Shown here one piece after another: positions 12,790-60,365 of a stretch of 64,000 bases of DNA. The translations under genes and the position numbers were made by a program. The first letter of the stretch is position 1. Each line of letters opens with the position of its first letter. The stretch is from Pseudonocardia thermophila. GTDB taxonomy: Bacteria > Actinomycetota > Actinomycetes > Mycobacteriales > Pseudonocardiaceae. The notes under the pieces were generated by a model that did not search any database, had not been told where the DNA came from, and saw only the letters and a list, made by a program, of their open reading frames with translations. The stretch spans positions 62,001 through 126,000 of the forward strand of contig NZ_FRAP01000012.1 of the NCBI RefSeq assembly GCF_900142365.1, written 5' to 3'.

Positions 12790-12865
12790 TGGTGGAGACG
12801 AGGGGAATCGAACCCCTGACCCCCGCCTTGCAAAGGCGGTGCTCTGCCAATTGAGCTACGTCCCC
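12790..12865 (-). tRNA. tRNA-Ala (anticodon TGC), CCA encoded
   Basis: On the minus strand the cloverleaf begins GGGGACGTAGCTCAATTGGC, has anticodon loop TTTGCAA with anticodon TGC, the T-loop GGTTCGATTCC, and an acceptor stem closing as CGTCTCC with discriminator A. The genome supplies CCA at the 3' end. The tRNA-Ile gene lies upstream at 13061-13134, the usual pair downstream of gyrA in actinobacteria. Confidence 0.95.
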
Positions 12866-12912
12866 GTTCCCCGCTGCGGATCCGGGGACCCGCTCGGCGG
12901 GAGCCAACCGGG

Positions 12913-13026
12913 TCAGCTGTTCGTGGCCTCCTGCCAGAGGTCAGCCTCGTTGCGCCCGGAGCGAACCTTGTTGAACACGACCGCGCCGACGGCCAGCGCG
13001 ACGAGTGCGATGAGGACCTTCTTCAT
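12913..13026 (-). CDS. DLW-39 family small membrane-anchored protein
   Basis: This 37-residue protein begins MKKVLIALVALAVGAVVFNK, a single N-terminal membrane segment. It ends with a short charged tail containing EADLWQEAT, whose D-L-W gives the family its name. Such peptides are commonly found in this spot between the tRNA-Ile and tRNA-Ala genes of actinobacteria; no function is known. The start ATG is at 13026. No strong ribosome site is visible. Confidence 0.85.
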   Translation of the reverse strand: MKKVLIALVALAVGAVVFNKVRSGRNEADLWQEATNS

Positions 13027-13060
13027 GACGTCACTGTCCTGTCGTCAACGGGTCTGGGAG

Positions 13061-13134
13061 TGGGCCTAGCTGGACTTGAACCAGCGACCTCATCATTATC
13101 AGTGATGCGCTCTAACCGACTGAGCTATAGGCCC
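13061..13134 (-). tRNA. tRNA-Ile (anticodon GAT)
   Basis: The minus strand folds into a cloverleaf with 5' arm GGGCCTA, D-arm AGCTCAGTCGGTTAGAGC, anticodon stem-loop CATCA-CTGATAA-TGATG (anticodon GAT), T-arm with GGTTCAAGTCC, and closing TAGGCCC plus discriminator A. CCA is not encoded, unlike the neighbouring tRNA-Ala. Confidence 0.95.
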
Positions 13135-14650: not shown

Positions 14651-17194
<2,544 letters not shown>

Positions 17195-17241
17195 GTCAGT
17201 CCTTCCACGAGGTCACCCGAGGTCCGAGTCCGATGGGGCAC

Positions 17242-19579
<2,338 letters not shown>

Positions 19580-46011: not shown

Positions 46012-46405
46012 GACTAGATGGTAGCTGTGTTTGATTGCCTCCTGCTCCTTCGTCGCAGGAGCTGGGTGGTCGCCTCGCGGAGGTCTCGGTCAGGTGCGGT
46101 CAGAGCGCGGGATCCGGCCTTCGGCTGGCTGGAGGGTTCGGTGCCGGGGGCGCGAGCCGTGCGTTCGGTGCGGCGAGTCGCGCAGCTGGCACGGCGAGTC
46201 CTGCGTTCGGTCTGGAGCGTGCGGCACACGAAGCGGAGCCCCGGCACCCTGCCGGGGCTCCGCTCGCTCGGGGGTTCGTCGGTCGGCGGCCGTGGTCACA
46301 GCTCCGGCGTCGGTGCCGACCGCGAGCGAGGGCCATCAGGTAGAAGAGGTCACCTGCGGTCCAGCCACCCTCGAGCTGCCATGACCACCACCCGGGGAGC
46401 GGTCG
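46012..46405. repeat. Intergenic gap with repeated CGAGTCGCGCGTTCGG-like 16-mers
   Basis: This 394-base gap has no supported gene. It contains three near-copies of a 16-base motif: CGAGCCGTGCGTTCGG at 46153-46168, CGAGTCGCGCAGCTGG at 46174-46189 and CGAGTCCTGCGTTCGG at 46195-46210. Related copies occur at 24451, 24491, 24731, 60206 and 60275. The Nudix promoter must also be here. Confidence 0.55.
46232..46264. terminator. Strong hairpin at the end of the catabolic operon
   Basis: A perfect 15-bp stem (46232-46246 with 46250-46264) with a CCC loop lies about 140 bases beyond the last gene of the minus-strand catabolic operon. It probably ends that transcript before it reaches the Nudix gene. 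Confidence 0.75.
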
Positions 46406-47155
46406 TCAGGTCATCCGGGCGAGCAGGCCGCCGTCGGCGAGCAGGGTCTGCCCGGTGATGAAGCTCGCGGCGTCGCTGACCAGGAACAGCAGGATCTTCG
46501 CGATCTCCTCCGGCTGCGCGGCGCGGCCGAGCAGGCAGCGGTCCACCTCGGCGCGGACGGTCTCCGACCAGGTATCGGCCATGTCGGTGAGGACGAAGCC
46601 GGGAGCGACGCAGTTCACCGTGATCGCCGGCGCCAGCTCGCGGGCGTAGGTGGTGGTGAGGTTCTCCACCGCGGCCTTGGCCGCGCTGTACGCCGCGACC
46701 TCCGGTGAGGAGAGCGGGTCCTGCCCGCGGATCGAGGACACGGTCACGATCCGGCCGTGGCCGCGGCGCTGCATCGCGGGGGCGACCGCGCGGATGAAGT
46801 GGGCCGGGCCGAGGACGTTCGCGGCGAACTGGTCGAGCCAACCGCCGGTGTCGCCCCCGCAGGCCGGGGTGGCCGCGACCGCCCCCAGTGCGCAGACGAG
46901 GCCGTCCGGGACGATCCCGTCGGCGAGCAGGCCCTCGACGGCGGCGGTCACAGCCGCCTCGTCGCGTCCGTCGCAGGTGATCGTGCGGGCCGACAGCTCC
47001 TGCGCGAGCTCGTCGAGGCGCGGGCCGGGCCGGCTGCCGTGCAGGACGACCTTCGCGCCCGCGTCGACGGCGAGGCGGGCGGTCGCGGCACCGATGCCGC
47101 GGGAGGAACCGGCGATGAGCAGGGTCTTGCCGGACAGGCCGAGCAGATCGGTCAT
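46406..47155 (-). CDS. Short-chain dehydrogenase/reductase (last gene of catabolic operon)
   Basis: The 249-residue SDR has the cofactor motif GSSRGIG (about 16-22), a catalytic serine in VTVSSIRGQ, the pair YSAAK (about 153-157) and the C-terminal SFITGQTLLADGG. It would oxidise or reduce a hydroxyl or keto group with NAD(P)H; in this operon oxidation of a 3-hydroxyacyl-CoA is plausible. The ATG 47155 is 29 bases after the MaoC stop. It resembles the other operon SDR at 54714 only at family level. Confidence 0.9.
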   Translation of the reverse strand: MTDLLGLSGKTLLIAGSSRGIGAATARLAVDAGAKVVLHGSRPGPRLDELAQELSARTITCDGRDEAAVTAAVEGLLADGIVPDGLVCALGAVAATPACGGDTGGWLDQFAANVLGPAHFIRAVAPAMQRRGHGRIVTVSSIRGQDPLSSPEVAAYSAAKAAVENLTTTYARELAPAITVNCVAPGFVLTDMADTWSETVRAEVDRCLLGRAAQPEEIAKILLFLVSDAASFITGQTLLADGGLLARMT

Positions 47156-47184
47156 CAGTGCGCACCTTTCGGATCGGGAGGGGG

Positions 47185-47604
47185 TCAGGAGTCCGCGACC
47201 ACGGCGAGGATGTGCGTCGCGACCAGGCACGTCGTTCCGTCCTGGGTGGCACCGCGCACCGCCGCGCGGACTCGGCGGCGCTCCTCGTCGATCGACTCGA
47301 CGGTGTAGTCGATCGTGACGGTGTCGCCGATGCGGACCGGGCCGGTGAAGCGGACCCGGTCGTACCCGGCGGAGACGGTGGTGCCGGGGATGCGGCCGGC
47401 CAGGATCGTCGATGCGGTGGACGCGAGCCCCAGGACGAGCACACCGTGCGCGATCCGGGTGCCGTACGGGGTGGTCCGCATGTACTCCTCGTCGACGTGG
47501 TTCGGCGCGAAGTCGCCGGTGATCCCGGCGAACAGGCCGACGTCGGACTCGGTGACGGTCTTGCGGAACCGGACGGTCTCGCCGACCGAGACGCCGAGGC
47601 TCAT
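47185..47604 (-). CDS. MaoC-like (R)-specific enoyl-CoA hydratase
   Basis: The 139-residue hot-dog fold protein has the hydratase-2 motif with Asp31 and His36 in TGDFAPNHVDEEY, followed by TRIAHGVLVLGL. It adds water to an enoyl-CoA. Its ATG overlaps the stop of the enoyl-CoA hydratase gene. Having both a crotonase and a MaoC hydratase suggests either two hydration steps or opposite stereochemistry. Confidence 0.9.
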   Translation of the reverse strand: MSLGVSVGETVRFRKTVTESDVGLFAGITGDFAPNHVDEEYMRTTPYGTRIAHGVLVLGLASTASTILAGRIPGTTVSAGYDRVRFTGPVRIGDTVTIDYTVESIDEERRRVRAAVRGATQDGTTCLVATHILAVVADS

Positions 47605-48338
47605 CGCGTGCCTCCGCGGGCGGCGGTGACGGCGCGGACCTCGACGGACTCCACGGTCGCGGCGGCGGCGAGCCGTTCGACGAGATCGACGGCGGGTCGC
47701 ACCGGGTCGGCGAGGGCGGCCAGCGCGAGCCGGACGGCGACCGGTGGCCTGCCCGCCAGCTCGTCGGCGATCGCCCTGGCGGCCGCGACCGGGTCCGGGG
47801 CGACCCGGTCGACGAGCCCCCAGTCCAGCGCCGTCGCGCCGGTGACCCGTTCGCCGAGCACCAGCAGCCGCCGCGCCCGCTGGGTACCGACGAGGGCGGG
47901 CAGCCGGCTCAGCCCGGACCAGCCCGGCAGCGTGCCGATCTCGATCTCCGGCATGCCGAGGACGGCGTCGGGGGCGGCGACCCGGAAGGTCGTCGTCGCC
48001 GCCAGCTCCAGCCCGCCGCCCAGGGCGTGCCCGGCGACGGCCGCCACCGTCGGGACGGGCAGGGCGGCGAGCCGGGCGAAAGCGCGCTGGCCCGCCGGCG
48101 TCCACTCCTCAACGGCCGCCCGCGGATCGACCTGCGCGAACTCGGCCAGGTCGGCCCCCGCGCAGAACGACGGGCCCTCTCCGCGCAGAACGACGGCCCG
48201 CACGTCCGGGTCCTCGGCGAGCCGATCGGCGCACCGGCCGAGCTGCGCCAGCATCTGCGTGGTGAGGGCGTTGCGCCGGGCCGGCCGAGCCAGCACCAGC
48301 TCGGCGACCGGGCCGAGGCGCTCCAGCCGCACGGTCAC
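47601..48338 (-). CDS. Enoyl-CoA hydratase/isomerase (crotonase family)
   Basis: The 245-residue crotonase-fold protein has the oxyanion segments EGPSFCAGADLAEF and AVAGHALGGGLELAA, then MPEIEIGTLPGWSGLSRLP. The second catalytic position is Gly or Pro rather than a clear Glu, so the exact reaction (hydration, isomerisation or ring chemistry) is open. GTG 48338 behind GGAGGCG overlaps the DUF993 stop by 4 bases. It acts in the cytoplasm on CoA thioesters made by the upstream genes. Confidence 0.88.
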   Translation of the reverse strand: MTVRLERLGPVAELVLARPARRNALTTQMLAQLGRCADRLAEDPDVRAVVLRGEGPSFCAGADLAEFAQVDPRAAVEEWTPAGQRAFARLAALPVPTVAAVAGHALGGGLELAATTTFRVAAPDAVLGMPEIEIGTLPGWSGLSRLPALVGTQRARRLLVLGERVTGATALDWGLVDRVAPDPVAAARAIADELAGRPPVAVRLALAALADPVRPAVDLVERLAAAATVESVEVRAVTAARGGTR

Positions 48339-49507
48339 GACGCCTCCAGCCCGTGCAGGGCGAGTACGCCGCGGACCCGGTGCGCGGCCAGCTCGGGATC
48401 GTCGAAGTACCCGATCGCGTTCGCCGCTTCGTAGACCCGGAGCAAGTGATCGAGGCTGCGTGCCGACTCCCGCCCGCCGATCATGCGGAAGTGCGGCTGC
48501 TGCCCGGCCAGGTACGCCAGCCAGACGATGCCCGTCTTGTAGTGCTGGGTCGGCGCGGTGAACAGCAGCCGCGCCAGCTGCTGGGTCGGGCCGAGGACCT
48601 CGCGGAAGCCCGCGGTGTCCCCGCGCTCCAACCGGTGCAGTGCCGCGGCGGCGTAGCGGGGGACGGCGGCGAACGCGCCGAGCAGCGCGTCGCTGTGCCG
48701 CCCCGCCTCGTCGTCGACCATCAGGTCGACGTAGTTGAAGTCGTCCCCGGTGAACATGCGGACGCCGGCGGGCAGCCGAGCCCGCAGCGCCCGCTCGGCG
48801 GCCGCGTCGAGCAGGCTCAGCTTGATCCCCGCGACGACCGGCGCGTGCCGGCCGATCAGGTCCAGCACGGTCTCCGCAGCGCGGCCGGGATCGGTGCTGC
48901 CCCAGTAGCCGCGCAGCGCCGGGTCGAACACCTCCCCCAGCCAGTGCAGCACCACCGGCCGTCGCGCGGCTGCGAGCACCGCGTCGTAGACGGCGAGGTA
49001 GTCCTCCGGCCGGGTGGCGGAGGCCGCGAGCTGCCGGCTCGCCATGACGACGGCGGTGCCGCCGCGGTCCTCGACGAACGCGAGCTGCTCCAGGTACGCC
49101 TCGGTGACGGCGGGGAGCGCCGCCGGGCCGGGCGGGAGCTGGTCGGTGGCGATCCCGACCACCGTCTCCCCACCCGCCTCGGCGAGGGTGCGGTCGATCA
49201 GGGTCCTGGCCTCGGTCCAGCCCAGCCCGCTGCCGCGCTGGGCGGTGTCCATGGCCTCGGCGACGCCGAGCCCGAGTCGCCACATCCGCCGCCGCACGGC
49301 GAGCGTGGCCTCCCAGTCGATCGCCGCCTCCGCGGTCGACGCCCGCCAGGGATCGGCGACGACGTGGACGGCCGCGTAGACCTTCCGGCACGAGACGGGC
49401 TCGGCGGTGTGCGGGTGCCCGGCGGGTTCACCGAGCGGGACGGTGGCGGCGGTGCCGTCCGGTCGGGGTAACCGGACGGCACCGCGCGTCGGCTGCGCGA
49501 CGGTCAT
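48335..49507 (-). CDS. DUF993 family protein, aldolase-like TIM barrel
   Basis: The 390-residue protein belongs to DUF993, a group related to dihydrodipicolinate synthase-type class I aldolases. Visible landmarks are WEATLAVRRRMWRLGLGVAEAMDTAQRG, VLHWLGEVFDPALRGYWG, AGIKLSLLD with a possible Schiff-base lysine, and MFTGDDFNYVDLM. No reaction has been firmly assigned to the family as far as I know. Between an alcohol dehydrogenase and a crotonase it may carry out a carbon-carbon cleavage, which would explain the absence of a thiolase. It lies 2 bases after the alcohol dehydrogenase stop. Confidence 0.85.
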   Translation of the reverse strand: MTVAQPTRGAVRLPRPDGTAATVPLGEPAGHPHTAEPVSCRKVYAAVHVVADPWRASTAEAAIDWEATLAVRRRMWRLGLGVAEAMDTAQRGSGLGWTEARTLIDRTLAEAGGETVVGIATDQLPPGPAALPAVTEAYLEQLAFVEDRGGTAVVMASRQLAASATRPEDYLAVYDAVLAAARRPVVLHWLGEVFDPALRGYWGSTDPGRAAETVLDLIGRHAPVVAGIKLSLLDAAAERALRARLPAGVRMFTGDDFNYVDLMVDDEAGRHSDALLGAFAAVPRYAAAALHRLERGDTAGFREVLGPTQQLARLLFTAPTQHYKTGIVWLAYLAGQQPHFRMIGGRESARSLDHLLRVYEAANAIGYFDDPELAAHRVRGVLALHGLEAS

Positions 49508-49509
49508 CG

Positions 49510-50622
49510 TCAGTGCTCGTGCACCAGGACGCCGCGCAGGTTGCGGCCCGCGTGCATGTCCTCGTAGGCCTCGTTGACCTGCTCCACCGTGTAGGTGCGG
49601 GTGACCAGGTCGGCGAGGTTGAGGTGCCCCGACTTGTAGTACGACAGCAGCTTCGGGATGTCGTGGCTCGGGTTGGAGTTGCCGAAGAGCACCCCGCGCA
49701 GCGTCTTGGCGTACACCACCAGCTCCAGCGGGTTGACCTCGATGCCCGGCTCGTGCGACCCGATCGACACGACGGCGCAGCGGCCTTCCTTGCGGATCGC
49801 GGAGAAGGCTTCGCCGATGATCGCGCCGTCGACCCGGCCCACGGTGACGATCGCCGCGTCGGCGCCCTGGCCGTTGGTGACCGAGTGCACGAACGGCATC
49901 GCCTCGGCGATCGAGCTGAACGCGTGGGTGGCGCCGAACCGCAGCGCCGACTCCCGCTTGAACTCCACCGGGTCGACGGCGACGATGTGCATCGCGCCGG
50001 CGTGCCTGGCGCCCTGCACCGCGTTGATCCCGACGCCGCCGACGCCCATCACGATCACGGTCTCGCGGGGCCGCACGGCCGCGCCGTTGACCGCGGCGCC
50101 CCAGCCCGTGGTGACTCCGCAGGCGACCAGGCAGGCGATCTCGAACGGGATGTCGTCGTCGATCTTGACGCACTGCTCCTGGCTGGTCACCAGGTAGTTG
50201 GCGAACGTCCCGAGGCGCTGCATGGCACCGCACGGGGTGCCGTCGGAGAAGAAGAACCGCGGCGTGCCGTCGAGCATGAACCCGGTCTGCACGTCCCGGC
50301 CGTTGTCGCAGATGTACTGCATGCCCTGAGCGCACCAGGTGCACGTGCCGCACATCGGCAGGTAGGCGGTGGCGACGTGGTCACCGACCTGCACCCGGGT
50401 GACGCCGGGGCCGACGGCGTCGATGATGCCGGCGCCCTCGTGCCCGCCGACGAACGGCAGGTCGACCACGGAGTCACCGGTGACGATGTGGTCGTCGGAG
50501 TGGCACAGGCCGGAGGCCATGACCTTGATCCGGACTTCACCCGGGCCCGGATCGGCCAGTTCGAGGGTCTCGGCCGTCCACTTGTCGCCGACCGCCCGCA
50601 CGACTGCTCCACGAACCTGCAT
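49510..50622 (-). CDS. Zinc-dependent, NDMA-type alcohol dehydrogenase
   Basis: This 370-residue medium-chain dehydrogenase has catalytic zinc ligands Cys40 (SGLCHSDDH) and His61 (GGHEGAG), structural zinc cysteines 91, 94, 97 and 105, and the cofactor loop MGVGGVGINAVQGARHAGA. The pattern matches actinobacterial NDMA-dependent alcohol dehydrogenases, which keep their nicotinamide cofactor tightly bound and need another electron acceptor. It should oxidise the alcohol group of the imported substrate to an aldehyde. ATG 50622 shares one base with the upstream stop (TGATG) and follows GGGAG. Confidence 0.9.
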   Translation of the reverse strand: MQVRGAVVRAVGDKWTAETLELADPGPGEVRIKVMASGLCHSDDHIVTGDSVVDLPFVGGHEGAGIIDAVGPGVTRVQVGDHVATAYLPMCGTCTWCAQGMQYICDNGRDVQTGFMLDGTPRFFFSDGTPCGAMQRLGTFANYLVTSQEQCVKIDDDIPFEIACLVACGVTTGWGAAVNGAAVRPRETVIVMGVGGVGINAVQGARHAGAMHIVAVDPVEFKRESALRFGATHAFSSIAEAMPFVHSVTNGQGADAAIVTVGRVDGAIIGEAFSAIRKEGRCAVVSIGSHEPGIEVNPLELVVYAKTLRGVLFGNSNPSHDIPKLLSYYKSGHLNLADLVTRTYTVEQVNEAYEDMHAGRNLRGVLVHEH

Positions 50623-51977
50623 CACATGCTCCCTTGCACACTGATCCATCGACGTTCCGTCAGCAGGTCCACGTTGGCCGACCCGCCGAACCGCTCCCCG
50701 CAGCCCGACGCGCCGATCCCGCCGAACGGGACCTGCGGCTCGTGCATCGCCGTCGTATCGTTGACGTGCACCATCCCGGCCCGCAGCCGCCGGGCGAGCA
50801 CCCGGCCGCGCTCGACGTCCCGGGTGAACAGGGCCGCTGACAGCCCGTACTCGGTCCGGTTGGCCAGCGCGATCGCGTCCTCGTCGTCCTCGGCCACGGT
50901 GATCGCTGCGACGGGGGCGAACGTTTCCTCGTCGAACAGCGGCATCCCGGGCCGGACCCCGCTGACCACGGTCGCCGGCACGTACCGGCCGTCGTGCCCG
51001 CCGCCGATGTGCAGGGTGGCTCCGCGGGCCACGGACTCGGCGACCATGGCGGCGGCGCGGGCGGCCTGCCGTTCGCTGATCAGCGGGCCGAGGTCGACGT
51101 CACCGGTCGCGGGGTCGCCGACGGTGAGCCGGGCGGCGTGGTCGGTGAGCGCGGCGGTGTAGGCGTCGGCGTGCTCGCGGACCACGATGTGCCGGCCGGT
51201 GGCGATGCACACCTGGCCCTGGTGGACGAACGTCCCGGCGGCCGCGCAGGAGACCGCGAGATCCAGGTCGGCGTCGGAGAGCACGACGGCGGCGTTGTTG
51301 CCGCCGAGCTCGAGCGCGACCTTCTTCAGGGTGCGGGCCGCGACCTCGGCGACCCGGCGGCCGACGGCGCTCGACCCGGTGAAGTGGATCATGTCGACGC
51401 CCGGGTGCTCGACGAGGGCGGGCCCGGCGTCGTGCCCGGGCAGCACCGCCAGCACGCCGTCCGGCAGGCCGGCGTCCACCAGCACCCGTGCCCAGGCGAG
51501 CCCTCCGGAGTGCGGGGTCTCCGGGGCCGGTTTGAGCAGCACCGCGTTGCCGAGCGCGAGCGCGGGCGCGGCGATCCGCAGCGCCAGGTGCATGGGGAAG
51601 TTCCAGCCGGTGATCAGGCCGATCACCCCGACCGGGACCCGTTCGACGACGTTCTCGCGGCCGGGCCGGACGGACGGCACGATCTCGGCCGTCGGGGTGA
51701 GCGCCAGCGCGCCCGCGAGGTGCAGCTCCTCGATGCTGTCGCCGACCTCGCCCTCGGCTTTGCGGCGCGTCCCGCCGGTCTCGGTGATCACCAGGTCGAC
51801 GAGCTCCGGGCGGCGGGCGTCGAGCGCGGCGGCGGCGCGGCGCAGGACCAGCCTGCGCTCAGGTCCGGGCGTGGCGGCCCAGCGCGGTTGCGCCTCCCGG
51901 GCCCGGGCGATCGCCGAGTCGACGTCGTCGCGGGTCGCCTCCCGGACCGGGGGCGGGGTGGTGGTGAGAGTGGTCAT
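50622..51977 (-). CDS. NAD(P)-dependent aldehyde dehydrogenase
   Basis: The 451-residue enzyme carries the catalytic Cys257 in HQGQVCIATGR and the general base Glu223 in VALELGGNN, with cofactor motif FTGSSAVGRRVAE. It resembles benzaldehyde/vanillin-type dehydrogenases by overall pattern. It would oxidise the aldehyde from the next gene's alcohol dehydrogenase to an acid ready for CoA activation. ATG 51977 overlaps the upstream stop as ATGA. Confidence 0.92.
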   Translation of the reverse strand: MTTLTTTPPPVREATRDDVDSAIARAREAQPRWAATPGPERRLVLRRAAAALDARRPELVDLVITETGGTRRKAEGEVGDSIEELHLAGALALTPTAEIVPSVRPGRENVVERVPVGVIGLITGWNFPMHLALRIAAPALALGNAVLLKPAPETPHSGGLAWARVLVDAGLPDGVLAVLPGHDAGPALVEHPGVDMIHFTGSSAVGRRVAEVAARTLKKVALELGGNNAAVVLSDADLDLAVSCAAAGTFVHQGQVCIATGRHIVVREHADAYTAALTDHAARLTVGDPATGDVDLGPLISERQAARAAAMVAESVARGATLHIGGGHDGRYVPATVVSGVRPGMPLFDEETFAPVAAITVAEDDEDAIALANRTEYGLSAALFTRDVERGRVLARRLRAGMVHVNDTTAMHEPQVPFGGIGASGCGERFGGSANVDLLTERRWISVQGSM

Positions 51978-53158
51978 GGGGTCCTCAGCGGTGCGGGGAC
52001 CGGGGCCGTCCAGTCCAGCGAGCTCGCGGCTCGGCCGAGCATCAGCTGGTGGATCTGGCTGGTCCCGTCGATGATCTGGATGATCTTGGAGTTGCGGAAG
52101 TAGCTCTGGACGAGGTAGTCGGCGTGCACGCCGGCCCCACCCAGCAGCTGGACGGCGACGGTGGACTGGGTCATCGCCGCCTCGGTCGTGGCGAGCTTCG
52201 CGGCGGAGATCAGCGTGTTGTCGCCGCCGCCCCCGGCGGCGAAGCTCGCCAGCGCGGCGTGCACGAGGTGCCGCCCGGACAGGTACGCCGCGAGCATCGA
52301 CCCGAGCTGGGCCTGCAGGAGCGGGTTGCGGGCGAGCGGCCCGCCGAAGGCCTCCCGTTCGCCCAGGTAGGTGGTGCACTCACGGAGCGCGCCGCGGATG
52401 AACCCGAGCGCGTACGAGGCGCAGTCCAGGCGCGCCAGGTTGACGCCCTCGAGCATCCCGGAGAAACCCTCGACGTTCATCCGCGCCTCGGCCGGTACCC
52501 GGCATCCGGAGAACGTGAGCGTCCCCAGCGGCACACCGCGGAACCCGATGAGCGGCTCCGGCGGGCCGGCTTCGGCGCCTTCGGTGGCGAGGTCGACGAC
52601 GAACGCCGCCGTGTCCGCGTCCCGGCCGCGGTGGTCGAGCTTGGCGAGCACAACGGCGAACCGGGCCCGCGGGCCCTGGGTGATCCAGGCCTTCTCCCCG
52701 TCGAGGACGTAGTGGTCGCCGTCCCGGCGGGCGACGGTGGTGATCGCGCGGACGTCGGTGCCGGCGTGCGGCTCGGAGATCGCGAACGCGCCGAACCCGG
52801 TCCCGGCGAGCAGACCGGGCAGCCAGCGGTCGCGCACCTGCGGGTTCGCGTACTTGCACAGCATGTAGGCGTGCAGCCGGGCGATCGACAGCGCGAGCGC
52901 GAACGAGCCCGAGTACGACGCGACGATCTCGTTGCTCTCGTGGGCGAGGGCGAACCCGGCCGGGTCGATCGCCCCGCGTTCGTCGACGATCAGGCCCTGC
53001 AGGCCGATCTCGGCGGCGGTGCGCATGAGGTCGGTGTCGTAGATCGCGGTGCCGTCCTCGATCGCGCGGACCTGGGGCAGCACCTCCTTCTCGCAGAACT
53101 CCTGCACCACGGCCAGCAGCTCGCGGGTCTCCGCGGTGGTCTCGAACAGCCCGGTCAC
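51974..53158 (-). CDS. Acyl-CoA dehydrogenase
   Basis: The 394-residue flavoprotein has the three-domain acyl-CoA dehydrogenase order: a helical start, FGAFAISEPHAGTDVRAI with GDHYVLDGEKAWITQG in the beta domain, and the C-terminal QLLGGAGVHADYLVQSYFRNSKIIQIIDGTSQIHQLMLGR. It inserts a 2,3 double bond into an acyl-CoA and passes electrons to ETF. GTG 53158 overlaps the CoA-transferase stop. Unlike the broken paralogue at 3246, it is intact. Confidence 0.93.
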   Translation of the reverse strand: MTGLFETTAETRELLAVVQEFCEKEVLPQVRAIEDGTAIYDTDLMRTAAEIGLQGLIVDERGAIDPAGFALAHESNEIVASYSGSFALALSIARLHAYMLCKYANPQVRDRWLPGLLAGTGFGAFAISEPHAGTDVRAITTVARRDGDHYVLDGEKAWITQGPRARFAVVLAKLDHRGRDADTAAFVVDLATEGAEAGPPEPLIGFRGVPLGTLTFSGCRVPAEARMNVEGFSGMLEGVNLARLDCASYALGFIRGALRECTTYLGEREAFGGPLARNPLLQAQLGSMLAAYLSGRHLVHAALASFAAGGGGDNTLISAAKLATTEAAMTQSTVAVQLLGGAGVHADYLVQSYFRNSKIIQIIDGTSQIHQLMLGRAASSLDWTAPVPAPLRTP

Positions 53159-54717
53159 GACGCCACCCGCCCTTCGGCCGCGGTGAACAGCCCGGCCGGC
53201 ATCGGCACCACCTCGCGATCGACGACCGGTTCGAAGCCCATGAGCGCGGTGATCCCCTCGACGGTCTGGCCGGGTGCGATCTCCCGCAGGGCGACGCCCC
53301 GGTCGGTCAGCTCGAACACGGCGCGTTCGGTGACGTAGAAGACCTCCTGGCCGCGGGCTCGGGCACGGGCCGCGTTGAAGGTCATGTGCTGCACGCGCGG
53401 CACGAACTTGCGCACCCGGCCCTCGGAGAGGACGGTCAGCCGCCCGTCGGCGATCTCGGTGCGCAGCCCGCCAGCTGTGAGCGTTCCGCAGAACACCACC
53501 CGCCGGGCGGACTGCGAGATGTTGATGAAGCCGCCGGCGCCGAACACCCGCCCGTCGACCAGCGACGAGTTGACGTTGCCCTCCGCGTCGACCTCGGCGA
53601 ACCCGAGGCAGGTGACGTCGAGGCCGCCGCCGTCGTAGAAGTCGAACTGGGCGGCGTGCTCGACGACGGCCTCGGGGTTCCACGCCACGCCGAAGATGAC
53701 CCCGCGGGCGGGCACCCCGCCGACCAGGCCCTGCTCCACGGTCAGGGTCAGCTCGTCGAGCCGGCCCTCTTCGGCGACCACCGCGGCGACCCCGTCGGCC
53801 ATGCCGACCCCGAGGTTCACCACGGCACCCCGGGGGATCATGGCCGCGGCCCGGCGGGCGACGACCGCGCGTTCGGTGAGCGGCAGGGGCTCGGCCAGCC
53901 CCAGCGGGACGGACAGCTCGCCGGAGAACGCCGGCTCGTAGTCGGTCTGCGCGGTCTGGCGCTGCTCGGGATGGACCACGACGTAGTCGACGAGGTGCGC
54001 CGGCACGACCACGTCCCGCGCCTTGAGGCTCCCGGCCGCGGCGACCCGCTTGACCTGGGCGATCACGATGCCGCCGCTGTTGCGCACGGCGGTCGCGGCG
54101 GCCAGCACGCCGATCTTGGCAGCCTCCTGCTCGAGGGTGAGGTTGCCCTTCTCGTCGGCCGTGGTGCCACGGATGAAGCCGACGTCGAACCGCGGGGTCC
54201 GGTAGTGCAGGTACTCCTCGCCGTCGATCTCGACGACCCGGACCAGCTGTTCGGTGGTGCGGTCGTTGAGCCGTCCGCCGTCGATGCGCGGATCGCAGAA
54301 CGTGCCCAGCCCGGTGCGGGTGAACAGGCCCGGCCGGCCCGCGGCGGTCTCGCGCAGCAGCTGCGCCAGCACGCCCTGCGGCAGGTTGTAGGCCTCGAAC
54401 TCGCCGTCCTGGGCCATCGCGGCGAGCTTCGGCGACATCGCCCAGTGCCCGGCGACCATCCGGGCCAGCAGCCCGGGCTGGGCGAAGTGGTCGATGCCCG
54501 AGCCGGCGCGGTTGCCGACACCGCTGCACGCCAGCGCGGAGATCCCCTGCGGGTGGCCGGTGCGGGCGAAGCGCTCGCCGAGGGCGGACAGCAGCAGGTC
54601 GGGCTCGACGACCCCGCCGCCGGAGGCCTCGATGAGCAGGCTGGCGCCGTCGGGAACGAGTGCGACGGCCTCCTCGGCGCTGACGAACCGTGCCTTGACG
54701 TCCTTCGTGTACCTCAC
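53155..54717 (-). CDS. Fused-subunit acyl-CoA:carboxylate CoA-transferase
   Basis: The 520-residue protein joins the alpha and beta halves of a class I CoA-transferase. The N-terminal half begins KARFVSAEEAVALVPDGASLLIE; the C-terminal half holds VNLGVGMADGVAAVVAEEG and the active-site glutamate in LTVEQGLVGGVPA. It moves CoA from a donor such as acetyl-CoA or succinyl-CoA to the carboxylic acid made by the two dehydrogenases. GTG 54717 overlaps the SDR stop and its own stop overlaps the acyl-CoA dehydrogenase start. Confidence 0.9.
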   Translation of the reverse strand: MRYTKDVKARFVSAEEAVALVPDGASLLIEASGGGVVEPDLLLSALGERFARTGHPQGISALACSGVGNRAGSGIDHFAQPGLLARMVAGHWAMSPKLAAMAQDGEFEAYNLPQGVLAQLLRETAAGRPGLFTRTGLGTFCDPRIDGGRLNDRTTEQLVRVVEIDGEEYLHYRTPRFDVGFIRGTTADEKGNLTLEQEAAKIGVLAAATAVRNSGGIVIAQVKRVAAAGSLKARDVVVPAHLVDYVVVHPEQRQTAQTDYEPAFSGELSVPLGLAEPLPLTERAVVARRAAAMIPRGAVVNLGVGMADGVAAVVAEEGRLDELTLTVEQGLVGGVPARGVIFGVAWNPEAVVEHAAQFDFYDGGGLDVTCLGFAEVDAEGNVNSSLVDGRVFGAGGFINISQSARRVVFCGTLTAGGLRTEIADGRLTVLSEGRVRKFVPRVQHMTFNAARARARGQEVFYVTERAVFELTDRGVALREIAPGQTVEGITALMGFEPVVDREVVPMPAGLFTAAEGRVAS

Positions 54718-55505
54718 GGCATCACCCCGCCGCCGTTGGCCGAGATCGTCTGCCCGGTGAGGAAGGAGGCCGCGTCGGAGAGCAGGAAGCGGATGACGGC
54801 CGCGATCTCGTCGGCGGTGCCGAAGCGGCCGAGCACCATCTTCGAGGTCTTGCGCTCCACCCACTCCGGCGTGGCGTGCGGCCGGGTCATCGGGGTGTCG
54901 ACCGGGCCGGGGGCGACCGAGTTGACCCGGATCCGCGGCCCGAGTTCGTGCGCGAGCGCCCGGGTGAGCCCGAGCGTGCCCGCCTTCGAGGCGGTGTAGG
55001 CGGCGACGTCCCGGGCGCCGGTGTAGGCCAGCTGGGACGCGACGGTGACGATCGCCGCGCCGGTGGCCCGCTGCAGGAACGGCAGGGCCGCGCGGGCGCA
55101 GCGGTAGGTGCCGGTCAGGTTCGTCTCGACGGTGCGGTGCCAGATCGCGGGCTCCAGCTCGGCGAACGGCACCTGCTCCATCACGCCTGCGGCGGTGACC
55201 AGGCCGTCCACCCCGCCGAACCGGTCGGCCGCGGCGGCGAACAGCGCCGCGACGGACCCGTCGTCGAGGACGTCGACCGGGACGGGGTGGGCGCGGTCCT
55301 CACCCAGCCGGTGGGCGAGCTCTTTCGCGCTCTGCTCGTCGTCGGGGGCGGGTCCGTGGCCCAGCACCACCGAGGCACCGGCCCGCACGGCCAGTTCGGC
55401 GGTGGCCGAGCCGATGCCGCCGGACGCGCCCGTGATCACCACGGTGCGGCCGTCGAGCCGGGCGAAGGGATCCGGCCCGGACGAATGGGTATCGCTCACG
55501 ATCAT
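54714..55505 (-). CDS. Short-chain dehydrogenase/reductase (first enzyme after transporter)
   Basis: The 263-residue SDR has GASGGIG (about 26-32), VASQLAYTGARDVAAYTASKAGT with the catalytic Tyr and Lys, and ends in the usual SFLTGQTISANGG. ATG 55505 overlaps the ABC ATPase stop as ATGA; GTG 55499 is an alternative. Its place directly after the importer genes suggests an early redox step on the imported molecule. Confidence 0.9.
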   Translation of the reverse strand: MIVSDTHSSGPDPFARLDGRTVVITGASGGIGSATAELAVRAGASVVLGHGPAPDDEQSAKELAHRLGEDRAHPVPVDVLDDGSVAALFAAAADRFGGVDGLVTAAGVMEQVPFAELEPAIWHRTVETNLTGTYRCARAALPFLQRATGAAIVTVASQLAYTGARDVAAYTASKAGTLGLTRALAHELGPRIRVNSVAPGPVDTPMTRPHATPEWVERKTSKMVLGRFGTADEIAAVIRFLLSDAASFLTGQTISANGGGVMP

Positions 55506-57019
55506 CCCTTGAATGCGTAGGAGAGGACGGACTCTTCGTCGGCGCTCGCGGCGTCGAGCTCGCCGACGGTGCGCCCGCCGCGCATGACGACGATGCGGTC
55601 GCAGGTGAGCAGCAGTTCCTGGAGCACGGACGAGACCATCACGATGGCCAGGCCGGACTCGGCCAGCTCCCGGATCAACCGGTGGACCTCTGCCTTCGCG
55701 CCGACGTCGATGCCGCGGGTCGGCTCGTCGAGCAGCAGCACCCGGGGCCCGGTCGCCAGGACGCGGCCGAGCACGACCTTCTGCTGGTTGCCGCCGCTCA
55801 GCGTCGCGACCGGGGCGCCGGGATCGGGCGCCTTGATCCGCAGGCGCTTCGCGTAGGCGGCGTAGAGCTCGGCGCCGCGGGCTCGCGAGACCCACGGTCC
55901 CCGCGACAGCGCGTCCAGGGCTGCCAGCTCGAAGTTGTGCTGGATGCTGTGGTCCAGGCTCAGCCCCTGCTCCTTGCGGTTCTCCGGGACCAGGCCGATC
56001 CCGGCGCGGATGGCGTCACCGGGCCGCCGCGGCCGGTACGGCTCGCCGAACAGCTCCATGGCGCCCGCGGTCGCGCGGGTGGCGCCGAAGATCGCGGCGA
56101 GCAGCTCGCTGCGACCGCTGCCGACCAGACCGGCGACGCCGAGCACCTCACCCGGCGCGACCTGCAGCGACGCCGACACCACCCCCGGCGCGGCGAGCCC
56201 GTCGACCCGCAGGGCCGGGCCGTTCGGGGCGATGCGCTGCGCGGACCGGTCCCCGCGCTCGTACACCGCCGAGACGTCGGAGCCGATCATGTTGCGGATC
56301 AGCGCGTCCTCGTCGAACGCCGAAGCGCGGTCGGAGGCCACGAGCCGGCCGTCGCGCAGGACCGTGACCCGGTCGGCGACCTCCAGCACCTCGGTGAGGT
56401 CGTGGCTGATGAGCACGATGCCGTGCCCGCCGTCGCGCAGCTCCCGCATCAGCCCGACCAGGCGGCGGGCGTCCTCCGGGCCGAGCGAGGACGTCGGCTC
56501 GTCGAGGATGATGATCCGAGCGTCCTGGGCGAGCGCTCGGGCGATCTCCACGAGCTGCTGCCCGGAGACCGACAGGGTGGCCGCGGGCCGGCGCGGATCG
56601 ACGTCCAGGCCGACCCGCTCGAGGTAGGTGCGGGCGAGCGCGGTCAGCCGCCTGCGGTCGATGAACCAGCCGTGCGCCGGCTCGATGCCCATCAGCACGT
56701 TCTCGCCGACGGACAGCGACGGGATGACGGTCAGCTCCTGGTGCACCATCGCGATGCCCTGGGCGGCCGACGCAGCGGCTCCGCCGTGCCGGGGCCGCCC
56801 GTCGACCAGGACCTCGCCCGCGTCCGGGGCGTACACCCCGAACAGCACCTTCGACAGGGTGGACTTGCCGGCGCCGTTCTCACCGACCAGTGCGTGGATC
56901 TCTCCGAGGTGCACGTCGAGGGTGACGTCGCGGAGCGCGTGCACCCCGGAGAAGCTCTTGGTGATGCCGGTCATCCGCACGAAGGCGGTGTCGGCCGGTG
57001 CGGAGATCGTGCCGGTCAT
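55502..57019 (-). CDS. Ribose/monosaccharide-type ABC importer ATPase with two NBDs
   Basis: The 505-residue protein carries two nucleotide-binding domains, as in RbsA/MglA. The first has GENGAGKST (about 46-54), LSVSGQQLVEIARAL and IILDEPTSSLG. The second has a degenerate Walker A GLVGSGRSE, with intact LSGGNQQKVVLGR and LLLDEPTRGIDVGAK. It powers uptake through the permease encoded upstream, with which it shares a 4-base overlap. The CUT2 class to which it belongs takes up sugars, polyols, autoinducers and other small polar molecules. Confidence 0.93.
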   Translation of the reverse strand: MTGTISAPADTAFVRMTGITKSFSGVHALRDVTLDVHLGEIHALVGENGAGKSTLSKVLFGVYAPDAGEVLVDGRPRHGGAAASAAQGIAMVHQELTVIPSLSVGENVLMGIEPAHGWFIDRRRLTALARTYLERVGLDVDPRRPAATLSVSGQQLVEIARALAQDARIIILDEPTSSLGPEDARRLVGLMRELRDGGHGIVLISHDLTEVLEVADRVTVLRDGRLVASDRASAFDEDALIRNMIGSDVSAVYERGDRSAQRIAPNGPALRVDGLAAPGVVSASLQVAPGEVLGVAGLVGSGRSELLAAIFGATRATAGAMELFGEPYRPRRPGDAIRAGIGLVPENRKEQGLSLDHSIQHNFELAALDALSRGPWVSRARGAELYAAYAKRLRIKAPDPGAPVATLSGGNQQKVVLGRVLATGPRVLLLDEPTRGIDVGAKAEVHRLIRELAESGLAIVMVSSVLQELLLTCDRIVVMRGGRTVGELDAASADEESVLSYAFKG

Positions 57020-58032
57020 GACGTCGTGCGGTCCCGTCGGACGAGCCGGTCGAGTACGACGGCGGCCACGATCACGGCGCCGGTGACGATCCGCTGCCAG
57101 TAGTCGGGCACGTTCAGCAGCTGCAGCCCGTTCACCAGCGATCCGATCAGCAGCGCGCCGAAGAACGTGCCGGCGAGCCGGCCCCGGCCGCCGAAGAGGC
57201 TCGTGCCGCCGACCACGACCGCGGCGATCACGTCGAGCTCCAGGCCGACGCTGCCCGCGGGCTGCCCCGACGACAGCCGCGACGACAGGATGAGCGCCGA
57301 GATCGCGACGCAGATGCCGCCGAAGACGTAGACGAACATCAGTACCCGGTTGACCCGGATCCCGGCGAGCCGGGCGGCCTCGGGGTTCCCGCCGACGGCG
57401 TAGATGCGCCTGCCGATCTTCATCCGGTGCAGGACCAGGTAGCCCAGCCCGAACACCACCGCCATGATGATCACCGGGATCGGGACGCCGAACACGTCGC
57501 CGAGGCCGATGCGCAGGTAGGGGCCGTCCGGGATCGACACCGGGCTGGAGTCGGTGACCAGCAGCGCGACGCCGCGGACTGCGGTCATCGTGGCCAGCGT
57601 GGCGATGAAGGCCGGCACCACCGCGACCGTGACCAGCAGCCCGTTGAGGGCGCCGACGACCGCGCCGACCGCCAGGGCGAGCAGGACGGCGAGCACCGCG
57701 CCGCCGAGCGAGTGCCCTGCCGGGTCGGCGGCCAGGCTCAGCGCCGCGAGGCTGCCGGTCAGGGCGGCCAGCGAGCCGACCGACAGGTCGATCCCGCGGA
57801 CCAGGATGATCAGTGTCATCCCGACCCCGGCGATCGCGGTGATGCTCACCTGGCGCACGACGTTCGTCAGGTTGAACACCGTGAAGAAGTTCGGCGCGAT
57901 GATCGCGAACAGCACCAGCAGGACGGCGAACGCCGCGATCGGGCCGAGCTCGGCGAGGCCGCCGGCCCGGGACCGGATCCGGGACGCGGGCCGGGTGGTC
58001 ACGGGGGCGCTCTCGATCAGCTGCGTGCTCAT
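57016..58032 (-). CDS. Ribose-type ABC importer permease
   Basis: The 338-residue membrane protein has about nine hydrophobic helices and the RbsC family signatures GMTLIILVRGIDLSVGS (about 72-88) and RRIYAVGGNPEAARLAGI (about 215-232). It forms the membrane pore with the double ATPase. ATG 58032 comes 32 bases after the binding-protein stop; GAGGAG is present upstream. Confidence 0.93.
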   Translation of the reverse strand: MSTQLIESAPVTTRPASRIRSRAGGLAELGPIAAFAVLLVLFAIIAPNFFTVFNLTNVVRQVSITAIAGVGMTLIILVRGIDLSVGSLAALTGSLAALSLAADPAGHSLGGAVLAVLLALAVGAVVGALNGLLVTVAVVPAFIATLATMTAVRGVALLVTDSSPVSIPDGPYLRIGLGDVFGVPIPVIIMAVVFGLGYLVLHRMKIGRRIYAVGGNPEAARLAGIRVNRVLMFVYVFGGICVAISALILSSRLSSGQPAGSVGLELDVIAAVVVGGTSLFGGRGRLAGTFFGALLIGSLVNGLQLLNVPDYWQRIVTGAVIVAAVVLDRLVRRDRTTS

Positions 58033-58064
58033 CGGCAGCTCCTCGGGTCGTGGCCGGGCAACGG

Positions 58065-59150
58065 TCAGAAGGCCGGCTGGAGGGTGCCCGCGCGCACTTC
58101 CTCCGCGGTCACCAGCTCGCCGAGCTGGACCGAGTAGGCGGGGACGGGCTCGCCGCGCAGGTACTTGACGGTCGACTCCACGGCCGTGGCCGCCGTGGGC
58201 AGGTGCCGGACAGTGGCCAGCGCCTTGCCGGCGGCGATCGCGTCGAACATCTCCTTCTGGCCGTCGAGCCCGATGACGTCGATGCCGCTGCGGCCGCTCG
58301 CCTCGATCGCGGAGATCGCGCCGAGCGCGGCCTCGTCGTTGGCGCCGAAGATCAGCTGGACGTCGGGGTGGGCGGCGAGGATCGACTCGGCCGCCTTGGC
58401 CGACGCGTCGCGGCGGTACTGGCCGGGCTGTTCGGCGACGATCTCGAAGTTGCAGGCCTTGCGCAGCTCCAGCTCGAAGGCGCTGGTGCGGGCCACACTG
58501 GACTGGTCGCCGGTGATGCCGGAGATGATCGCGACCTTGACGCCCGGCTGGCCTTCGTAGTGCTTGACGATCCACTCGCCGATCGTCTTGCCCTCCGACG
58601 CGTACGGCGCCAGCGCCTGCGAGGCGGGCTTCACGCCGAGCATGCCCTTCTGCGTGAAGCTGTAGGCGATGTCGCGCTGCTGGGCCTCCTGCAGGACCGC
58701 GTTGAGACCCTGGGTGTTGGCCGGCATCATCACGATCGCGTTCGAGCCGCTCGCGATCGCGTTCTGGATGTCGTTGAACTGCTTGTTGACGTCGTCGTTG
58801 GCGCTCACGACGTCCAGCTGCACCCCGAGCTCGGCGGCCTTCGCCTGGGCCAGCTGCTGCTGGGTGACCAGGAACGGGTGGGAGAGCCCCTCGATCGAGA
58901 AGGTGATCTTGATCGGCGCGTCCGGCGGGAGCGGCTTGGGGTTGGTGTTCAGGGTCTTTCCGGCATCGGCCGCGGCGATCCCGTAGAGGTTCTTCGACAG
59001 GGTCTCCTCGAGCTCGGCGATCCGCTGGGCGTTCTCCGGGCAGTTCGGGCTGATCGCCTGGGCGTCGACGGTCGAGGCCGTCGAGCCGCCGCATCCGGCC
59101 AGCAGCAGGGTCGCCGCCACGACGGCGGCGCCGAGGGTGATCGATCGCAT
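58065..59150 (-). CDS. Ribose-type ABC substrate-binding lipoprotein with N-terminal insert
   Basis: The 361-residue protein has a lipoprotein signal (VVAATLLLAGC, Cys about 20) and a periplasmic-binding type I fold from about residue 80. It includes NDIQNAIASGSNAIVMMPANTQGL and FGANDEAALGAISAIE. Between them about 55 residues form a helical insert (NAQRIAELEETLSKNLYG) that common RbsB proteins lack. It binds the operon's substrate outside the cell. ATG 59150 follows GAAGGAGAT. It begins 41 bases after the iclR stop. Confidence 0.92.
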   Translation of the reverse strand: MRSITLGAAVVAATLLLAGCGGSTASTVDAQAISPNCPENAQRIAELEETLSKNLYGIAAADAGKTLNTNPKPLPPDAPIKITFSIEGLSHPFLVTQQQLAQAKAAELGVQLDVVSANDDVNKQFNDIQNAIASGSNAIVMMPANTQGLNAVLQEAQQRDIAYSFTQKGMLGVKPASQALAPYASEGKTIGEWIVKHYEGQPGVKVAIISGITGDQSSVARTSAFELELRKACNFEIVAEQPGQYRRDASAKAAESILAAHPDVQLIFGANDEAALGAISAIEASGRSGIDVIGLDGQKEMFDAIAAGKALATVRHLPTAATAVESTVKYLRGEPVPAYSVQLGELVTAEEVRAGTLQPAF

Positions 59151-59191: not shown

Positions 59192-59995
59192 TCAGGTGCG
59201 ACGGGAGCGCCGGGCCGGGGCCATCGCGACCGGCGGGAAGAGCAGGCTCGAGATCTTCTCGGCGGCCTTGATCAGCAACGGGGCGAACTCGTCGACCGCC
59301 CGGTGGTCGTCGAGCCGGAACTTCGGCGCGCCGATGCAGACGGCGGCGACCGCGTTGCCGAGCGGGTCGAGGATCGCGGTGGCGACCGACCGGACGTCGG
59401 GCTCGCGCTCCTCGAAGTTCAGGGCGTAGCGGCGCTTGCGCACCTGCTCGAGATCGGCGGCGAGCTCCGCCATGCTCGTGACGGTGTTCGGCGTGTACCG
59501 GATGTAGTCGAGCCGGGGGAGCAGCCGCTCCACGAGCACCGCGGGCAGGAACGCGAGGATCGCCTTGCCCTGCGAGGTGGCGTGCAGCGGAACCCGTTGC
59601 CCGACCTCGCCGTACATCTGGACCGGGTGCGGCGAGCGCAGGCACTGGACGTAGGTGACCTCCAGGCCCTCGCGCACCGACAGGAAGACCGTCTCCCCGC
59701 TGGTCTCCCGCAGCTCCTCGAGCACCGGCAGCGCCAGCTCGCCGAGCGAGCGCCGATCGATGCGCAGCGTCCCGAGCAGGCGGGCCTGCGGCCCGAGCTC
59801 GTAGAGCTTGGTGACCTCGTCCTGCACCGCGAAGCCGCGGTCGCACAGCACGCGCAGCAGCCGTCGCGTCGTGCTGAGCGGGAGGTCCAGTGCCTGGGAC
59901 AGGCTCGTGAGGTTCGCGCCTCCGGCCTGGATGCCCAGCTCGCTGAGGACGTCGAGCAACCGGTAGGCCGCCTGCGCCCCTTGTACTTCCACCAT
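59192..59995 (-). CDS. IclR-family transcriptional regulator of the catabolic operon
   Basis: The 267-residue protein has an N-terminal winged helix-turn-helix (about 8-68, with LTSLSQALDLPLSTTRRLLRVL) and a C-terminal IclR effector domain (about 80-255, with HATSQGKAILAFLP and VRSVATAILDPLGNAVAAVCIG). Such regulators repress or activate catabolic genes and release on binding a pathway compound. ATG 59995 follows GAGGAG. It is the first gene of the minus-strand run, so it probably controls its own promoter and the 12 genes after it. Confidence 0.92.
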   Translation of the reverse strand: MVEVQGAQAAYRLLDVLSELGIQAGGANLTSLSQALDLPLSTTRRLLRVLCDRGFAVQDEVTKLYELGPQARLLGTLRIDRRSLGELALPVLEELRETSGETVFLSVREGLEVTYVQCLRSPHPVQMYGEVGQRVPLHATSQGKAILAFLPAVLVERLLPRLDYIRYTPNTVTSMAELAADLEQVRKRRYALNFEEREPDVRSVATAILDPLGNAVAAVCIGAPKFRLDDHRAVDEFAPLLIKAAEKISSLLFPPVAMAPARRSRRT

Positions 59996-60365
59996 GTGGC
60001 AACTCCTCGTCGTGTTGCGGGCGAAAGAGTGCGGATTCGGCAGGCGATCTGTCAAGATGTCCGTCGAAATCTCCCAGAAAACTCGGGATTTCAGATGCTG
60101 GATCGCCGTGGAACATGTGCGCCACGATGTGGCGATATTCCACGATGTGACAGTCTCGCGAGGTCGGTGTGCGGTCAGTGACGGGACCCGGGTCGGCCGA
60201 CGCGGCGAGTCGCACGTCCGGTCGGGTGAGTGCTGCTGCGCCTCACCCGCCCTCTCACCCGCTGCCTCACTCGCCGAGTCGCGTGTTCGGCCCCGGTTGC
60301 GGGTGCCCGGGAACACGATCGCCTCCGGCGGGGGCGCCGTCCGGCGGCCGGTAAAGTGGTTCGCC
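59996..60365. promoter_or_regulatory. Divergent iclR-cca gap with candidate IclR operator
   Basis: No gene fits in these 370 bases. At 60107-60149 lie an outer inverted pair (CGTGGAA 60107-60113 with TTCCACG 60138-60144), an inner pair (CGCCAC 60120-60125 with GTGGCG 60129-60134), and a 10-base direct repeat CCACGATGTG (60122-60131, 60140-60149). TGGAA...TTCCA symmetry resembles known IclR-type operators. On the plus side TAAAGT at 60352-60357 is a -10 for cca. Two copies of the CGAGTCGCGCGTTCGG-like motif lie at 60206 and 60275. Confidence 0.55.

Follow-up and report, generated by a model that had tools for sequence, protein, structure and literature searches.

The window analysed here, a stretch of 64,000 nucleotides from Pseudonocardia thermophila (contig NZ_FRAP01000012.1 of assembly GCF_900142365.1, positions 62,001 to 126,000), carries on its minus strand a block of 13 genes that forms a genuine catabolic operon, acquired horizontally and belonging to a recurring kind. 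Our analysis establishes its gene content and linkage, its insertion, the recurrence of much of its enzyme set, and the fold and conserved lysine of its DUF993 protein. We somewhat favour the view that this horizontally acquired, probably IclR-controlled operon serves the use of a small polar primary alcohol, with DUF993 as the cleaving enzyme. Every reaction, the order of the steps and the substrate we infer as follows. A ribose-type ABC system would import the alcohol, whose CH2OH end would be converted to a carboxylate by an NDMA-type alcohol dehydrogenase (ADH) and an aldehyde dehydrogenase (ALDH), and a YdiF-type CoA-transferase (CoAT) would make the CoA ester. An acyl-CoA dehydrogenase (ACAD), two hydratases (an enoyl-CoA hydratase, ECH, and a MaoC-type enzyme) and a short-chain-type oxidoreductase (SDR) would dehydrogenate, hydrate and oxidise the chain. 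DUF993, as a Schiff-base class I lyase acting either before or after CoA transfer (both orders being allowed), would cut a C-C bond beside a ketone made by an SDR. The products would be a short acyl-CoA and a short hydroxy acid, probably glycerate, which would be phosphorylated by a kinase encoded elsewhere in this genome and inside the clusters of several relatives.

The run extends from 59150 down to 46406 and comprises 12 genes, all of which were confirmed to be present. In 5' to 3' order, it begins with the importer: a lipoprotein-like substrate-binding protein (SBP) of the ribose type (CUT2; 58065..59150; Pfam Peripla_BP_4), a permease (57016..58032; BPD_transp_2) and an ATPase with two ATPase stretches, both matching ABC_tran (55502..57019). 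Then come SDR1 (54714..55505; adh_short_C2), in which YxxxK is present, the YdiF-type CoAT (53155..54717; CoA_trans; 468 bits with YdiF, 2ahu), the ACAD (51974..53158; Pfam and alignment), the ALDH (50622..51977; Aldedh) and the NDMA-dependent ADH (49510..50622; TIGR03989), for which an alternative GTG start lies 3 bases earlier. The last genes encode DUF993 (48335..49507; PF06187, alignment and Foldseek), a crotonase-fold ECH (47601..48338; ECH_1 and alignment) that keeps both Glu positions, which we take to be catalytic, the MaoC-type hydratase (47185..47604; MaoC_dehydratas) and SDR2 (46406..47155; adh_short_C2). A gene encoding an IclR-family regulator (59192..59995; IclR_C and HTH_IclR) is co-directional with the run and located 41 nt upstream of the SBP gene. 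It is therefore probably the first gene of the 12-gene unit, giving a block of 13 genes. Families were assigned by Pfam for all 13 genes and by NCBIfam for 11 of them.

Within the run, the successive gaps are 32, -4, -4, -4, -4, -4, -1, 2, -4, -4 and 29 nt. Nine of the 11 junctions overlap or are at most 2 bases apart, which bears out the coupled run described from the sequence alone (the sequence-only reading) and supports its view of one tightly coupled catabolic unit. The binomial probability of at least nine such junctions out of 11 is 0.0016 against a rough baseline of 19 equally tight same-strand neighbour pairs out of 56, which pools 9/31 window pairs outside the island, with approximate starts from our own gene caller, and 10/25 annotated pairs from one Rhodococcus plasmid stretch that itself holds a related cluster. 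Upstream of the IclR gene, a nested inverted repeat (CGTGGAACAT/ATATTCCACG, with inner CGCCAC/GTGGCG; 60107..60144) is a plausible candidate for the IclR operator. After SDR2, a 15-bp perfect inverted repeat with a 3-nt loop (46232..46264), terminator-like without a T run, is likewise a plausible candidate terminator; a terminator scan scored no site in the region, this hairpin included.

On either side of the block lie pcnA and a NUDIX gene. In this genome, the matches to the two are 14,379 bp apart, as against 109-362 bp in all 13 chosen relatives (S. spinosa and 12 congeners hand-picked from at least 24 listed). Hence, a single insertion, the whole 13-gene run, separates these two housekeeping genes here. 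No protein of the operon was found above 150 bits near pcnA-NUDIX in the 7-12 kb stretches of the 13 relatives. The island does not differ from its flanks in G+C content, and the search for direct repeats at the borders yielded a longest shared word of 12 bases, which is unconvincing.

CoATs of this kind are rare in the family to which the strain belongs, being found at E 1e-100 in 8 of 297 genomes, seven of which carry DUF993 within 4 kb of the CoAT gene (only the top few candidates per genome were scored in the CoAT, ADH and ACAD scans). The closest CoAT in these 297 genomes is that of S. spinosa (88% identity), no other being close. DUF993 itself is present in 165 of the 297 genomes. Among the matches listed (80 loci), the DUF993 nearest to that of the window is also from S. 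spinosa (76%), the others reaching at most 59%; one found separately in G052 is 61% identical. Among the top candidates from 396 genomes of the phylum, no close relative of the ACAD was found at E 1e-110 besides that of the window. S. spinosa harbors a core in the same order (IclR, SDR1, CoAT, ACAD, DUF993, ECH and MaoC; 72-87% identity), headed by the IclR orthologue (75% identical). This cluster is devoid of ABC, ADH, ALDH and SDR2 genes, and a gene encoding an MHS-type symporter adjoins it. Hence, the ABC, ADH, ALDH and SDR2 genes look like an add-on. The core therefore seems to act on an acid, the ABC, ADH and ALDH proteins probably enabling the window strain to begin with the alcohol.

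The ADH of the window passes TIGR03989 with 505 bits (cut-off 440). NDMA-type ADHs depend on mycofactocin, and the genome encodes a mycofactocin maturase (TIGR03962, 660 bits for a cut-off of 265), a model passed by none of 14 control genomes. Three further genes of this genome, on contigs C15, C12 and C2, also pass the NDMA-ADH cut-off. Among 397 genomes of the order, the ADH was found at E 1e-140 in five, namely the window genome, G968, G777, G346 and G888. In the last two, the ADH (61%) belongs to a different cluster, with no CoAT or DUF993 match in the 40 kb read. On plasmids, 61 of the 62 ADH matches at E 1e-80 are less than 60% identical to the window ADH, the best of them reaching 51.4% among the matches listed (42 others are not listed).

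The identity of the window ADH reaches 75% with the locus L157, carried by plasmid pUSK13_1 of Rhodococcus sp. USK13, 75% with G968 and 70% with G777. The L157 cluster encodes a GMC oxidoreductase, ALDH, ADH, a ribose-type ABC system, a glycerate kinase, an AKR, an SDR, ACAD and CoAT, with DUF993 and a TIM isomerase divergent from the rest, and G968 carries a near copy of it (89-98% for matched proteins). The G777 cluster encodes LacI, ABC, TIM, DUF993, ADH, ALDH, CoAT, ACAD, SDR, a MaoC-type hydratase 58% identical to that of the window and a glycerate kinase, together with what are presumably EtfB and EtfA, named by eye from the sequence with no family search. Like the window, pUSK13_1 and G968 have ABC, ADH (75%), ALDH, CoAT, ACAD, SDR and DUF993 (58-59%). 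Unlike the window, they have in addition TIM, glycerate kinase, GMC oxidoreductase, AKR, LacI and another Gfo/Idh protein, and the pUSK13_1 cluster has no MaoC or ECH in its annotation, its CoAT, ACAD, SBP and ALDH being distant from those of the window. The ABC importer, ADH, ALDH, CoAT, ACAD, SDR and DUF993 occur together in both L157 and G777, and oxidation of an alcohol to an acid followed by CoA activation, as the sequence-only reading had it, is therefore supported as the likely logic. Similar functions have been assembled from different, partly non-orthologous homologues, which speaks for a working pathway and against a chance association.

The alternative that one transcript joins two unrelated functions, i.e. 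alcohol uptake and oxidation on one side and beta-oxidation of an acid, from an S. spinosa-like source, on the other, would agree with the fact that S. spinosa has the second half alone, and with the low identity (24-37%) of the window ABC and ALDH proteins to their Rhodococcus counterparts. We consider it unlikely, as the window ADH shares 70-75% identity with ADHs encoded beside CoAT-DUF993 clusters in other genera, and the ADH and ALDH genes form part of the coupled run, with ACAD on one side and DUF993 on the other.

The DUF993 protein matches PF06187 with 508 bits (gathering score 24), and no NCBIfam model matches it at E 0.001. Its AF2 model has a pLDDT of 92. The top Foldseek match is the solved relative, 4dnh (SMc04132), followed by chains of the DHDPS/NAL family (E 3e-11 to 2e-9 among the matches listed). 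DUF993 shares the fold of this superfamily (TM about 0.6 to the query) but is distant in sequence (12-17% identity among the matches listed). Residues K229 (in GIKxSLL) and TGDD (253-256) are invariant in all 25 aligned DUF993 proteins, 3 of 28 rows having been dropped beforehand, and we take them to sit at the Schiff-base lysine and the GDD motif of the superfamily. Judging from the model, DUF993 is probably a lyase of the DHDPS/NAL fold; the fold matches support an aldolase-like fold, in keeping with the aldolase-like cleavage proposed earlier. A literature search found no description of the function of DUF993: an expression table in PMC12542648 lists two of the genes SMc04132, SMc04133 and SMc04131, and the parts of PMC9007349 available to us contain nothing on DUF993. 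Here is a family with a solved structure and hundreds of members, for which no assigned function was found. The CoA-linked clusters constrain its role (a keto group made by an SDR, an acid accepting CoA and a glycerate-type product) and thereby make its function testable with a few purified enzymes. Establishing it would also put a name to a catabolic capability that is exchanged en bloc among soil actinobacteria.

The neighbourhoods of DUF993 were compared in 85 loci with enough flank (loci of at least 11 kb) using our own thresholds and a limit of 8 kb, which cuts some genes of L157 and L166. A YdiF-type CoAT is encoded by 12 of them, including the window. All 12 encode an SDR and none a triad-type Gfo/Idh; MHS was found in nine, TIM in eight, ACAD and ECH in six each, MaoC in five, ALDH in four and ADH in two. 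The other 73 are mostly Gfo/Idh-DUF993-TIM triads (triad-type Gfo/Idh in 69, TIM in 71), with two SDR matches, one ECH match, four glycerate kinases and no ACAD, MaoC, ADH, ALDH or MHS. Next to the DUF993 gene of the window, there is neither a triad-type Gfo/Idh nor a TIM gene within 8 kb. The triads, found in Streptomyces, rhizobia, Paenibacillus and others, resemble the window in their DUF993, which has the invariant lysine and 80 positions in common, but in them the triad-type Gfo/Idh replaces the SDR, and YdiF-type CoAT, ACAD, ADH and ALDH are missing within 8 kb.

For the phylogeny, 149 DUF993 rows plus five added ones were reduced to 144 by dropping fragments, duplicates and L150 (stop in the chosen frame), and 45 were hand-picked for spread. 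In this tree, the 12 CoAT-linked proteins need three label changes, versus a mean of 10.6 when labels are shuffled (none of 500 shuffles was as low). Nine of them, including that of the window, form one clade (100/100), L050 and the L149/L151 pair being placed elsewhere. Between this clade and 115 triad proteins, only two positions (252 and 314) are distinguishing and 80 are shared, including TGDD and K229, the latter being found in 9/9 rows of the clade and at least 98% of the triad rows. From these alignments, DUF993 probably performs one and the same chemistry in both contexts, and its substrate may be a free acid rather than a CoA ester. Accordingly, its placing after beta-oxidation, as in the sequence-only reading, is only one possibility, 73 of the 85 loci having no YdiF-type CoAT within 8 kb.

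A competing scenario deserves attention, although we give it less credence than the one outlined above. DUF993 would be the first to act, its substrate being a free keto acid or keto sugar that SDR1 produces, as is presumably the case in the Gfo/Idh-DUF993-TIM clusters; the CoA enzymes would degrade only one of the two fragments, and ADH and ALDH would serve to oxidise the substrate or else an aldehyde fragment. Besides the two class-specific positions against 80 shared ones and the lack of ACAD and MaoC (with one ECH match) in the 73 loci without CoAT, it is favoured by the position of the glycerate kinase gene directly after TIM in L053, L082 and L160. However, in the CoAT loci an SDR accompanies the CoAT every time, whereas ACAD and MaoC are present in only some. 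CoA transfer thus looks central, a pattern compatible with either order. L160, moreover, encodes a CaiB-type CoA-transferase and an ECH.

Returning to the scheme that we favour, its product may be sought in the kinases encoded near DUF993. Of the 12 CoAT loci, five were scored as encoding a glycerate kinase, and L050 (37%) and L033 (cut by the locus edge) carry one too. The window alone does not offer this clue, which comes from its relatives. Among the 73 other loci, L083 has one 7 kb away, in addition to the three in which it follows TIM. In L149, the gene overlapping DUF993 encodes instead what looks by eye like an acid-sugar kinase of the DUF1537 type. The simplest reading is that the product is a short sugar acid. 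The window genome encodes three glycerate kinases, none of which belongs to the operon.

No described pathway with this enzyme set had been recognised previously, and our literature search found none either. The closest logic is that of deoxyribonate catabolism, in the CoA variant of Klebsiella michiganensis (PMC6365646): as far as the portions of this article available to us indicate, it involves an acid, a 3-keto acid or CoA ester, a proposed cleavage to glyceryl-CoA and an acetyl unit, and a glycerate kinase. According to the same portions, that route uses a CoA-synthetase, a hydroxyacyl-CoA dehydrogenase and a thiolase, unlike the window; 'acyl-CoA dehydrogenase' and 'dihydrodipicolinate' do not occur in the text of the article, and these portions do not name MaoC, NDMA-ADH or a ribose-type ABC system. 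The window thus differs from the deoxyribonate route in the lyase, the importer, the entry by an alcohol and the ACAD and MaoC.

These resemblances (SDR, CoA-transferase, glycerate kinase and transporter, as in the portions of PMC6365646 cited) would suit an operon for ribose, deoxyribose or another ordinary sugar, i.e. a variant of the deoxyribonate route. This seems quite unlikely to us: neither a beta-keto acid cleavage enzyme nor a thiolase is found by Pfam among the 13 genes, and ACAD and MaoC would have no obvious role on deoxyribonate. The lack of a thiolase, already pointed out by the sequence-only reading, holds for these 13 genes but means little, as thiolases may be encoded elsewhere. 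Moreover, the ribose-contact positions of the SBP are largely changed. Its nearest PDB chains by sequence are ribose- or sugar-binding proteins (up to 122 bits), but it keeps only three of what we take to be the seven polar ribose contacts of RbsB, the alignment showing the changes N13->H, D89->Q, R90->K and Q235->H. The Gln found at the D89 place is common to the SBPs of Rhodococcus, G777 and M. aquaticum and is not found in that of L050, a pattern too weak to be used. The Rhodococcus SBP is nearest to 2rjo, and no relative of the window SBP was found on plasmids at E 1e-30.

Another kind of substrate would be a polyhydroxylated cyclohexane bearing a CH2OH group (carbasugar type), which would be converted to a quinate- or shikimate-like acid and opened as in the degradation of cyclohexanecarboxylate. 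As weak support, the better sub-cut-off matches of the ACAD and SDR1 include the models for cyclohexanecarbonyl-CoA dehydrogenase and hydroxycyclohexanecarboxylate dehydrogenase. The best NCBIfam models for the S. spinosa MHS symporter are those of a metabolite/H+ symporter and, as best equivalog match, a shikimate transporter, both below cut-off, which is a weak hint as well. However, all these matches fall far short of the cut-offs and are equalled or outscored by other models, making such a substrate very unlikely.

Several observations weigh against the alcohol-to-glycerate scheme that we favour. The clusters of the window and S. spinosa have neither a glycerate kinase nor a TIM isomerase gene, and no TIM relative was found in the window genome at E 1e-5 in a search run without a positive control; the pathway may therefore differ from that of Rhodococcus and G777. 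For CoAT, ACAD, ALDH and SBP, the identity between the window and the Rhodococcus cluster is no more than 24-45%. In G104, the eighth family genome with a CoAT (51% identical, at a contig edge), no DUF993 was found, nor was any found in the stretches read around the CoAT relatives carried by Caballeronia and Tsukamurella plasmids. Three of the 12 CoAT loci (L157, L166 and L033) encode a Gfo/Idh of another type 4-6 kb away, so that the SDR is not always the sole candidate dehydrogenase. The 85 loci were chosen for their similarity to the window DUF993 or for holding a CoAT, not at random. The candidate IclR operator shows no visible conservation upstream of the IclR gene of S. spinosa. Finally, the ACAD of the window and its 87% identical relative in S. 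spinosa (L147, 8172-9347) have an Asp (IIDGT versus IYEGT) where three other sampled ACADs have a Glu; this position is presumably that of the catalytic Glu, and we assume that an Asp may still work.

Other DUF993 settings were encountered. L149 (9178-17821) encodes a CoAT, a CaiB-like CoA-transferase, DUF993, the apparent kinase of the DUF1537 type, an NAD epimerase, an MHS transporter and an aldolase-like protein, several of them named by eye. L150 and L151, from the same genus, also have CoAT, a CaiB-like gene, DUF993 and a transporter, and these loci represent a second type of CoAT-DUF993 cluster. In L153 (3417-8103), the genes beside a CoAT-DUF993 cluster seem, by eye, to encode a permease like KdgT, a RuBisCO-like protein and a kinase of the DUF1537 type; we take these neighbours to resemble apionate-type genes. 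On a Glaciihabitans plasmid (L160, 2562-13180), a Gfo/Idh-DUF993-TIM-glycerate kinase cluster lies beside genes encoding the CaiB CoA-transferase, the enoyl-CoA hydratase and a DUF2264 protein, which constitutes another CoA-linked DUF993 setting with a CoA-transferase of a different family. Elsewhere in the window, gyrA and gyrB adjoin on the minus strand (14651-19335), and tRNA-Ile and tRNA-Ala genes are located downstream of gyrA (12790-13134). Hence, the window corresponds to the gyrase region of the chromosome.

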